Part shown: positions 16,924 through 62,128 of the stretch, piece after piece
Layout: every line of letters starts with the position of its first letter
How positions within the stretch are numbered: position 1 is the stretch's first letter
Assembly (NCBI GenBank): GCA_001563335.1
Contig: LRSL01000069.1
Span: forward strand, 62,001-126,000
Source of the DNA: Candidatus Thorarchaeota archaeon SMTZ1-45
GTDB lineage: Archaea > Asgardarchaeota > Thorarchaeia > Thorarchaeales > Thorarchaeaceae
Length of the DNA stretch: 64,000 nucleotides
Direction: 5' to 3'
Notes under the pieces: model-generated
Databases searched by the model: none
Told to the model about the DNA's origin: nothing
Seen by the model: the letters and a program-made list of their open reading frames with translations, nothing else
Program-made: the position numbers and the translations under genes

Positions 16924-16935
16924 GAACACGTGTTC
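16924..16935. promoter_or_regulatory. GAACACGTGTTC palindrome upstream of the deacetylase gene
   Basis: A perfect 12-base palindrome, 97 bases before the start of the deacetylase-like gene. The same or near-identical sequence occurs four times at 50.5-51.2 kb. It is probably an operator for a dimeric DNA-binding protein; the protein is unknown. Confidence 0.5.
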
Positions 16936-45660: not shown

Positions 45661-46644
45661 ATGGAAGGTTATTTCATTATTACCACAGAGAATCTTATCT
45701 TTGAAGTAAAGGGTGTAGTTCATCCCAGAAACCGTGTTATTGCATATCTTCGATATGTTCCGAGTGACAATGAGAGTTCTGAGTTAGTTACTAATTACAG
45801 GAAAATATATGCATTACATGAGAGAGAGAAGTATCTTCAGACTAATTATCCATCTTATCTCTGGTTCAGTAAATCACATGGAAGAGTAGTGCAATCAGTG
45901 CCTAATGATAGGATAAAATCTATTCTTAATCCCATGGATTGTTTGATAAATCTCAGGAGTCATATTGATGATGTGTCTAATTTGGGACAGGCATCTGTGA
46001 ATTTGTCTGAGAGATTGGTGGAATCTACAGGCATTGAACTGTCTAATATAGGAATTACGGGATCGCAACTTATTGGGATTTCCAGAGAAGATTCAGATAT
46101 TGACCTAGTAGTGTATGGTTCAGATGTCTGCCGAAGTTTCTATTCTAATATGTCTAAGAATATAGATTTGATTACAGGTATCAAGCGGTATACAGGAATT
46201 TTACTTGATGAGCATGTTTCTTTTAGATGGGGAGCTCATGAAAGTATGAGATTGATACTTCGAAAGATTGAGCAATCGAAGATATTGCAAGGTTTATTTG
46301 AAGAGTATCATTTCTTTGTGAGATTAGTCAAGATTCCGGATGATCTCAATTATGTCTATGGTGATATTTCATTCCAGATGAAAGGTCAACAGCTAGTCAC
46401 AGGAAAAATATTGAATGATAGTGATGCTATATTCACACCTTGTGAATATCTTGTGGAATGTTATGAGATACCAAATCTCAAGAAACTTGTTAGCTATAGA
46501 GGTCGGTTTACTGAACAGATTATACGCGATGAATTTTTTGAAGCACAAGGAAGACTCGAGATAGTTACTAATCATAAAAAGGAGGAGCAATATATGCAGC
46601 TTGTCTTAGGTGAGCTTCCTACTGATTATTTAATTCCAAAGTAG
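45661..46644 (+). CDS. Nucleotidyltransferase-domain protein (COG1665-like)
   Basis: About 327 residues. The central motif 'IGITGSQLIGISREDSDIDL' followed by VVYG is a polymerase-beta-type nucleotidyltransferase signature (GS...SDxD). The N-terminus 'GYFIITTENLIFEVKGVVHP' followed by 'RNRVIAYLRYVP' matches the archaeal COG1665 group of predicted nucleotidyltransferases, whose substrate is not known. ATG 45661 is preceded by CAGGA; the frame extends up to 45595. It diverges from the desulfurase-like gene. Confidence 0.78.
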   Translation: MEGYFIITTENLIFEVKGVVHPRNRVIAYLRYVPSDNESSELVTNYRKIYALHEREKYLQTNYPSYLWFSKSHGRVVQSVPNDRIKSILNPMDCLINLRSHIDDVSNLGQASVNLSERLVESTGIELSNIGITGSQLIGISREDSDIDLVVYGSDVCRSFYSNMSKNIDLITGIKRYTGILLDEHVSFRWGAHESMRLILRKIEQSKILQGLFEEYHFFVRLVKIPDDLNYVYGDISFQMKGQQLVTGKILNDSDAIFTPCEYLVECYEIPNLKKLVSYRGRFTEQIIRDEFFEAQGRLEIVTNHKKEEQYMQLVLGELPTDYLIPK

Positions 46645-46682: not shown

Positions 46683-47160
46683 ATTCACACATCAATTGTG
46701 TGAATGGCGCCTTTATTGTGAATGGTCTGGGAGAAACAGACTTCTTATTGCTCTGATGAGGAAAAATAGATATTATATGTTTCATGATACCTGTGAATAG
46801 ACACACCCCTTCGTTTCCTGTGGAAATGGGTAAATAGACATATGGAATCCTTACATGTTCATTCACAAATAGGATAAATTAGTGAATGATAAAATGGCTG
46901 GAAAATATCTTTTATTTAATGAAAAAAGGGCTCATATTGCTTTTTTATGACAAAAAAGACTTTGAAGGACGTCAGCACAACAAAAACGAAACGGACGAAC
47001 TCTATATGTGTACAGACACACTATGTAGCTCTTATCTTGGTATACATAATTCACATACTCACACTTATTTGGGGTTGTAGTTATTTTGATTGTGAATACT
47101 AAAGAGGAGTAAATTTGTTTGAGCGGTGATGATAGAACTAACTATGTGTATGAATTCACA
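46683..47160. repeat. Cluster of ATTCACA/TGTGAAT repeats
   Basis: Between the nucleotidyltransferase gene and the gene at 47119 the heptamer ATTCACA or its complement occurs at 46683, 46699, 46717, 46792, 46861, 47049, 47091 and 47154. The first two form an inverted repeat ATTCACAC-n7-GTGTGAAT (46683-46705). The density is far above what base composition would give. Possible roles are iterons of an origin or an operator array controlling the downstream gene. The rest of this 470-base spacer is AT-rich with no convincing ORF. Confidence 0.65.
46802..46826 (-). other. ORB-like origin element
   Basis: The minus strand reads TTTCCACAGGAAACGAAGGG followed by GTGTG. It matches the archaeal origin-recognition-box pattern of a short dyad (TTTCC...GGAAA) followed by a G-string. 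It is embedded in the ATTCACA repeat cluster. No inverted partner was found nearby, so this may be a lone ORB or a secondary origin. Confidence 0.5.
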
Positions 47161-47748
47161 TACAGTTCAGCACCGGGTCTTCGTGAGATATTCCAATGTA
47201 AGTATGTCAAACCAAATGAAGCACTTAACAGGTTTAGAAAGATCTTGGCATTAACAGAGTCACCTTTTGATTTCAAGATAGTTGTATCTGATGAAACAAT
47301 GGGAGAAGAGTCTAGTTTTCAAGTGAAGGGTGGTAGTGTAGAAGAAATGTTTGTCAAATTCAAGGTCTTTCTCGAAACAAGCACTGGGTTCGTCTTTGAA
47401 CCAGTTAGTGAGGAAATTACAGAAGTTGGACTAGAGGATACTCGATTTGAATCAATGAGTAATTATGATAAAATGCAAGTGATAATATATGCATCGTTTA
47501 AACATGGCAAATTTTCTTCACTTGATGTTACTGAGATATATCAGGATTCATTCAATGAAGATCTTCCAAAAAGCACAGCATCTACATATCTTGCAAGAAT
47601 GTGGAATAATGGCAAGGGACATTTAGAGCGGTATGGAAATCGTTCAGGTTATACATATAGACTACGAACTGAAATTGCAGAGGTTCAAAAAGAAACTGAA
47701 AGAGCAGAGGAGCTTCTTGCTGCTATACAAATGCGTGTTCGTGATTAA
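47119..47748 (+). CDS. Uncharacterised protein with C-terminal winged-helix-like region
   Basis: A 209-residue protein of no recognised family. The N-terminal about 110 residues look alpha/beta ('TNYVYEFTYSSAPGLREIFQ', 'KILALTESPFDFKIVVSDE'). Residues about 115-185 resemble a winged helix ('MQVIIYASFKHGKFSSLDVT', 'PKSTASTYLARMWNNGKGHL', 'ERYGNRSGYTYRL'), suggesting DNA binding. A short charged coiled coil ends it. TTG start with GAGGAG eight bases upstream. The promoter region is full of ATTCACA repeats, the last one inside the gene, so it could be autoregulated or an iteron-binding initiator-like protein. Confidence 0.65.
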   Translation: MSGDDRTNYVYEFTYSSAPGLREIFQCKYVKPNEALNRFRKILALTESPFDFKIVVSDETMGEESSFQVKGGSVEEMFVKFKVFLETSTGFVFEPVSEEITEVGLEDTRFESMSNYDKMQVIIYASFKHGKFSSLDVTEIYQDSFNEDLPKSTASTYLARMWNNGKGHLERYGNRSGYTYRLRTEIAEVQKETERAEELLAAIQMRVRD

Positions 47749-50522: not shown

Positions 50523-50534
50523 GAACACGTGTTC
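50523..50534. promoter_or_regulatory. GAACACGTGTTC palindrome, copy 1
   Basis: Perfect 12-base palindrome (14 with flanking A/T), 19 bases before the ATG of the 95-residue gene at 50553. In that place it overlaps where RNA polymerase would start, as a repressor operator would. Confidence 0.55.
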
Positions 50535-50935: not shown

Positions 50936-50947
50936 GAACATGTGTTC
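50936..50947. promoter_or_regulatory. GAACATGTGTTC near-palindrome, copy 3
   Basis: Identical to copy 2 and only 12 bases from the left ORB-like element. This closeness suggests a protein bound here could touch or compete with Orc1/Cdc6. Confidence 0.5.
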
Positions 50948-50959
50948 TAAAATCAATTG

Positions 50960-51126
50960 GACCCCCTTGTTTCCACTAGAGATTATTACTAGCTATCTAA
51001 TCGTTTAAATATCAAAAAATATATATAATCGTTTTAGAAGCTGTTTTTATCTCCATTTTTTTAACATAAAATAATACCCGCTGAAACCATTCTCCATAAG
51101 ATCTTTCTAGTGGAAATGAAGGGGTC
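50960..51126. other. Candidate replication origin: inverted ORB-like pair with AT-rich centre
   Basis: On the minus strand at 50980-50960 and on the plus strand at 51106-51126 the same 21-base element occurs in opposite orientation (18 of 21 identical). Its core is AGTGGAAACAAGGGGG on the left and AGTGGAAATGAAGGGG on the right. This fits the archaeal ORB consensus, a dyad plus G-string, with G-strings pointing outward. Between them lie about 125 bases of very AT-rich DNA (long A/T runs around 51000-51075, direct repeat TAATCGTTT at about 51000 and 51028), a plausible unwinding element. Orc1/Cdc6 is encoded 24 kb away. Confidence 0.66.
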
Positions 51127-61962: not shown

Positions 61963-62128
61963 AGATATGGTATCACAAGTACTTCATGTAATACAATTTT
62001 GAAACAATAGTTTCAGATATAAAATGTATGGTAAACTGCGCCATTCAGACACAACCTTTTTGAAGAGAATGAATAGGCTGGAAGTTCAACTCAAGATTAA
62101 ATATCACAAGTTATAGGAGTAACTTAGT

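Follow-up and report, generated by a model that had tools for sequence, protein, structure and literature searches.

A conserved array of TGTGAAT boxes and an ORB upstream of an origin-linked, putative winged-helix protein gene in Asgard archaea

Introduction

Of all known organisms, Asgard archaea are those most closely related to eukaryotes. The DNA analyzed here, termed the window, is a stretch of 64,000 nt (positions 62,001–126,000 of contig LRSL01000069.1) from Candidatus Thorarchaeota archaeon SMTZ1-45, whose genome assembly is incomplete and consists of 119 contigs. A preliminary description, made from the sequence alone, noted a cluster of ATTCACA/TGTGAAT heptamers with an embedded ORB-like element in front of a gene, 4 kb from an inverted pair of ORBs, and proposed an iteron-type origin or an autoregulated initiator. 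The question raised by this locus is whether the cluster is an origin in itself, an operator of the adjoining gene, or a control element tied to a nearby origin. No published description of Asgard origins or of the encoded protein was found in the open-access literature searched.

Repeat boxes and ORB upstream of the gene

The number of ATTCACA/TGTGAAT heptamers in the window, 20, is that expected by chance (20.3). However eight of the 20 are found within positions 46683–47160, i.e. at 46683(+), 46699(-), 46717(-), 46792(-), 46861(+), 47049(+), 47091(-) and 47154(+), with signs referring to ATTCACA. The densest 478-bp cluster in 300 Markov-simulated 64-kb sequences has four heptamers. The claim of at least seven in fewer than 500 bases is borne out. 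Two of them, 46683 and 46699, do form the inverted repeat that had been reported. The composition of the set upstream of the gene needs correction, however. The heptamer at 47154 is within the downstream gene, where it encodes a conserved E-F-T and where most orthologues have no heptamer, and an AGTGAAT box whose core begins at 46882 had been overlooked. The 474-bp intergenic region displays seven exact TGTGAAT sequences and one AGTGAAT (boxes 1–8, Table 1). Centre-to-centre spacings are 17, 18, 75, 68, 21, 167 and 43 and the orientation is mixed.

The ORB-like element among the heptamers proves to be an exact canonical ORB. Positions 46806–46826 on the minus strand match the sequence TTTCC-ACA-GGAAACGAAGGGG exactly, a pattern of 21 bases for which chance predicts 0.03 occurrences per window. 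An additional inverted heptamer pair, ATTCACACCTTGTGAAT, is present at window positions 46431–46447 inside the nucleotidyltransferase-like open reading frame upstream, and recurs in a few relatives.

Table 1. Features of the box array, the adjoining gene and the inverted ORB pair (window positions)
Feature	Position	Strand	Remarks
Box 1	46683..46689	- (TGTGAAT on minus strand)	Forms the inverted repeat with box 2; GTGAA core in 26/30 Thorarchaeota
Box 2, TGTGAAT fused to GGCGCC	46699..46705	+	Kept in 29/30 Thorarchaeota
GGCGCC motif	46706..46711		99–103 bp from ORB in five Asgard families
Box 3, TGTGAAT	46717..46723	+	Kept in 30/30 Thorarchaeota
Box 4, TGTGAAT	46792..46798	+	Kept in 29/30 Thorarchaeota
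Canonical ORB TTCCACAGGAAACGAAGGGG	46806..46825	- (opposite to gene)	Predicted Orc1/Cdc6 site; 34/34 Thorarchaeota loci
Box 5, ATTCACA on plus	46861..46867	-	Kept in 30/30 Thorarchaeota
Low-stability stretch, 80% AT	46867..46926		Lowest 0.18% of 60-bp windows; possible secondary unwinding element
Box 6, AGTGAAT	46881..46887 (GTGAAT core from 46882)	+	GTGAA core in 30/30 Thorarchaeota
Box 7	47049..47055	-	Embedded in conserved AATTCACATACTCACACTTATTTG
CTTATTTG, probable TATA element of gene	47064..47071	+	Conserved in alignment; putative promoter role
Box 8, TGTGAAT	47091..47097	+	30/30 Thorarchaeota; near putative transcription start
Gene of origin-linked, predicted winged-helix protein, 209 aa, TTG start	47119..47748	+	
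GAACANNTGTTC palindrome	50936..50947		One of four around ORB pair; others at 50523, 50854, 51182
ORB of inverted pair, candidate oriC core	50962..50981	-	
Least stable 60 bp of window, between ORBs	50976..51035		Probable duplex-unwinding element
ORB of inverted pair, candidate oriC core	51105..51124	+	

Conservation in Thorarchaeota

Orthologues of the 47119–47748 product are found in most genomes of the same genus and the same family. The preliminary description had made its proposal depend on the repeats recurring in front of homologues. At all 34 Thorarchaeota loci compared (the window and 33 named records) they do recur, with 4–9 GTGAAT boxes in the last 520 bp per locus against 0.1–0.7 expected, and the upstream ORB is present as well. 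Box positions are kept upstream of orthologues at about -457, -441, -423, -348, -279, -91 and -49 from the gene. A 30-sequence alignment shows conservation of the boxes, GGCGCC, the ORB, a TGGA and the sequence around box 7, while the spacers between them are variable.

Conservation in short fixed blocks with variable spacers is not that of a coding sequence, and a coding explanation of the intergenic region was rejected on this basis. A conserved structured RNA is extremely improbable. Although inverted boxes are able to pair as hairpins, covariation is absent from all 31 predicted pairs (with a covariation term close to zero), there is no Rfam match, and the boxes are invariant where the spacers vary freely.

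Within 14.5 kb, the top-conserved non-coding 11-mers are confined to the array and the intergenic region of the inverted ORB pair. The 11-mer positions common to at least half of 26 loci amount to 4.7% and 3.1% in these two regions, respectively, compared with 0.1% in other non-coding DNA; the 11-mers TGTGAATGGCG and GTGAATGGCGC, associated with box 2, are present in 25 of the 26. The signature TTCACATACTCACACTTATTTG, with up to three mismatches, is found in 36 of 46 Thorarchaeota genomes and is located at the promoter of the gene wherever the gene was also located. It is single-copy per genome in all carriers except G156, where it is on two contigs.

A second copy of the gene (L002, G000:C115:9181-9804), 93% identical, is present at a contig end in the same genome bin and probably derives from a mixed strain.

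The inverted ORB pair

The inverted ORB pair 4 kb from the array is real (Table 1) and is detected at 28 of 34 loci; for the other loci the available DNA does not exceed 9.5 kb. The pair is 3.7–4.3 kb downstream of the gene in most cases. In L084 this distance is 5.3 kb, and in L104 the pair is upstream. Inverted ORBs around an unwinding element are the textbook arrangement of an archaeal oriC. The 50962–51124 pair displays this arrangement, with a probable AT-rich unwinding element between its ORBs, whereas the array has one ORB only. The pair is probably the likelier unwinding site, since it has both the textbook layout and the least stable DNA of the window.

The palindrome GAACANNTGTTC also occurs at window position 16924, and Thorarchaeota relatives have palindromes near the ORB pair in comparable positions. 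Among non-coding words of the region GAACACGTGTTC is the best conserved, found at 26 of 26 loci. One Thorarchaeota genome has, at another locus (L049, G030:C1:185341 region), a perfect ORB about 130 bp from a GAACACGTGTTC palindrome; this may possibly be an Orc1-controlled promoter or a second origin. GC and AT skew in two single-contig genomes (G036 and G038) placed no origin at the locus. The profiles are uninformative, because of their noise and because the profile of G036 tracks the direction of the genes.

Initiation could instead take place at the array itself in an iteron-type manner, the winged-helix protein acting as a Rep-like or WhiP-like initiator together with Orc1/Cdc6, and the ORB pair being a second or auxiliary part. 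In bacterial plasmid iteron origins (Rep, DnaA box, iterons), repeats and an initiator box are found directly upstream of the gene for a winged-helix DNA-binding protein. The layout here is alike: multiple short repeats (eight conserved GTGAAT boxes), one host-initiator box and an AT-rich stretch that is among the least stable 0.2% of 60-bp windows, with a rep-like gene for a putative initiator directly downstream. In addition, the single ORB of the array usually outscores the ORBs of the pair and is better conserved, and the geometry of the array is conserved across families. However the boxes are irregular in spacing and occur in both orientations, not as regular tandem direct repeats, and the textbook ORB layout with the least stable DNA belongs to the pair. 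No similarity to Rep families was found in Pfam or NCBIfam and, unlike plasmid origins, the array is chromosomal. Homologues are absent from the plasmids and viral contigs searched, and a mobile or plasmid origin was rejected on the same result. Initiation at the array itself is considered unlikely. Of the original proposal, the autoregulatory part fits the data, as two conserved boxes flank the TATA-like element, while the array as an iteron origin, and the protein as an initiator, are hypothetical.

A simple autoregulatory operator, where boxes and ORB serve solely to control how the winged-helix gene is transcribed and do not act directly at the origin, accounts for these promoter-flanking boxes (7 and 8). 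It is also compatible with locus L104 (same genome as G019), where gene and array have the reverse orientation with respect to the ORB pair yet are within about 4 kb of it; the array therefore travels with the gene while staying near the pair. However six distal boxes, GGCGCC and the ORB are located roughly 230–440 bp upstream in a fixed geometry, which exceeds the needs of a minimal archaeal operator, and linkage to the origin and to orc1 persists across families (see below). An operator of this limited kind is distinctly improbable.

Occurrence in other Asgard families

Profile searches detect homologues of the protein in 118 of 195 Asgard genomes and in 40 of 57 genera. In the DNA fetched (20-kb and 15-kb stretches around homologues) the density of ORBs close to the gene is 7.5 times that found elsewhere, and in many families a single ORB precedes the gene by about 260–320 bp on the opposite strand. 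Where orc1/cdc6 is seen outside Thorarchaeota, it is within 0.3–3.3 kb of the homologue in most families, and most checkable homologues adjoin ORBs and/or orc1/cdc6. Some families with a homologue have no clear array or ORB. In Thorarchaeota orc1/cdc6 is not adjacent; copies are about 20 and 60 kb away and the best-matching one is not beside the origin. We infer that orc1 was lost from the Thorarchaeota neighbourhood rather than gained elsewhere.

The distance from GGCGC to the ORB is 99–103 bp in every motif-bearing locus of families f1, f6, f9, f11 and f12, where the chance of such a distance is about 0.003 per locus. A geometry of GGCGC, 100 bp, ORB, about 300 bp and gene is thus common to five Asgard families, and TGTGAA boxes are enriched upstream in many others. 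Because the geometry and boxes are common to families, the element is judged, from sequence comparison, to be older than the split of several of them. Linkage of the gene to an origin is strongly supported across the phylum by ORB density, orc1/cdc6 proximity and the GGCGC-ORB geometry.

In family f4 (L064 and L067) the boxes read GTTAACA; GTTAAC occurs eight times within the 480 bp preceding the gene in L064. The ORBs of this family also differ. These changes suggest co-divergence of sites and protein.

At Thorarchaeota orc1-1 (L034–L045), ORB-like half-sites are present beside a conserved GTAATACGT element about 80–160 bp before the orc1-1 match. A heptamer cluster was not found at the orc1-1 promoter in these loci. 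The half-sites are suggestive of Orc1 autoregulation.

Properties of the protein

No named family in Pfam or NCBIfam includes the protein; there are weak winged-helix matches only. An AlphaFold2 model of modest quality (pLDDT 63, pTM 0.41) displays an N-terminal beta-beta-alpha-beta-beta-alpha region followed by a linker, and a C-terminal region with a helix-helix-helix-strand-strand order and a long final helix. The C-terminal part of this modest model resembles the winged helices of PadR, MarR and the replication terminator protein RTP (best Foldseek E-value 0.019, with near-certain Foldseek probability; VIA-align Z 6.6). These scores are middling overall. The fold class of the protein is likely winged-helix as modelled, with a tentative family placement, in agreement with the earlier notion of a winged-helix-like C-terminus and of a DNA-binding fold. 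Hardly any variation is seen among Asgards in ST.STYL.R, the presumed recognition helix, which is in keeping with the conserved GTGAA/GTTAA core of the boxes.

The N-terminal domain shows only a low-confidence resemblance to p19. An N-terminal duplication in the Thorarchaeota protein was rejected, as the hhalign match is weak and its probability very low.

Comparison with known systems

Origins of the archaeal oriC1 type share with this locus the same canonical ORB, an inverted pair around a low-stability unwinding element and, in other Asgard families, a nearby orc1/cdc6. They differ in that here an extra ORB is located 4 kb off, inside a heptamer array preceding a winged-helix gene. Sulfolobus oriC3 is also beside a winged-helix initiator gene, however the published description relates WhiP to Cdt1 and gives its origin no ORB (PMC4010727); the Thorarchaeota locus has ORBs and is set apart by this description. 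In Haloarcula, the ORB cluster of oriC2D titrates the initiator and thereby reduces the activity of the origin (PMC3936714). The array here would likewise be a case of initiator sites away from the firing origin, although it has one ORB together with boxes of another sequence. UBP, which binds the ucm motif at Sulfolobus origins, is a non-Orc1 DNA-binding protein, a 111-aa saddle-shaped dimer that contacts DNA via beta-hairpins and has hundreds of sites (PMC12141716). In contrast, a winged-helix fold is predicted for the present protein, and genomes have a single occurrence of the array signature.

The locus is classed here among archaeal ORB-type origin regions, as a variant form that includes a hitherto undescribed, predicted winged-helix family linked to the origin.

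Possible function

Precisely spaced boxes and an ORB precede a gene that is usually beside a predicted chromosomal origin; the array therefore looks like an ancient, hitherto unstudied replication control element of Asgard archaea. The reading favoured, with moderate confidence, is that of an origin-tied control element, a putative site for the adjacent protein and, at the ORB, for Orc1/Cdc6, which would autoregulate the gene and modulate the origin.

The winged-helix protein, probably as a dimer, may bind the boxes, as linkage and co-conservation suggest. Through boxes 7 and 8 the protein would repress its own gene or adjust the expression of it. The distal boxes and Orc1/Cdc6 on the ORB may form a nucleoprotein complex, which would couple the level of the protein to initiator occupancy and could either promote or restrain firing of the nearby inverted-ORB origin. 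Comparison supports the fixed geometry of the eight boxes with GGCGCC and the ORB, the position of the gene beside the predicted oriC, and the promoter-flanking boxes.

A more far-reaching view is put forward only tentatively and is rather doubtful. Asgards might ancestrally have a two-part chromosomal origin, made of the ORB pair and an iteron-like array recognized by its own winged-helix co-initiator, a protein with no relationship to the initiators known so far, where box and protein co-diverge by family (TGTGAAT in Thorarchaeota, GTTAACA in one other).

The array makes the address of a candidate replication origin concrete, with a DNA signature conserved across several families and a candidate protein. 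Should the protein prove to act as a co-initiator, or to restrain Orc1/Cdc6, this would add a non-Orc1 replication regulator to the archaeal group nearest to eukaryotes.
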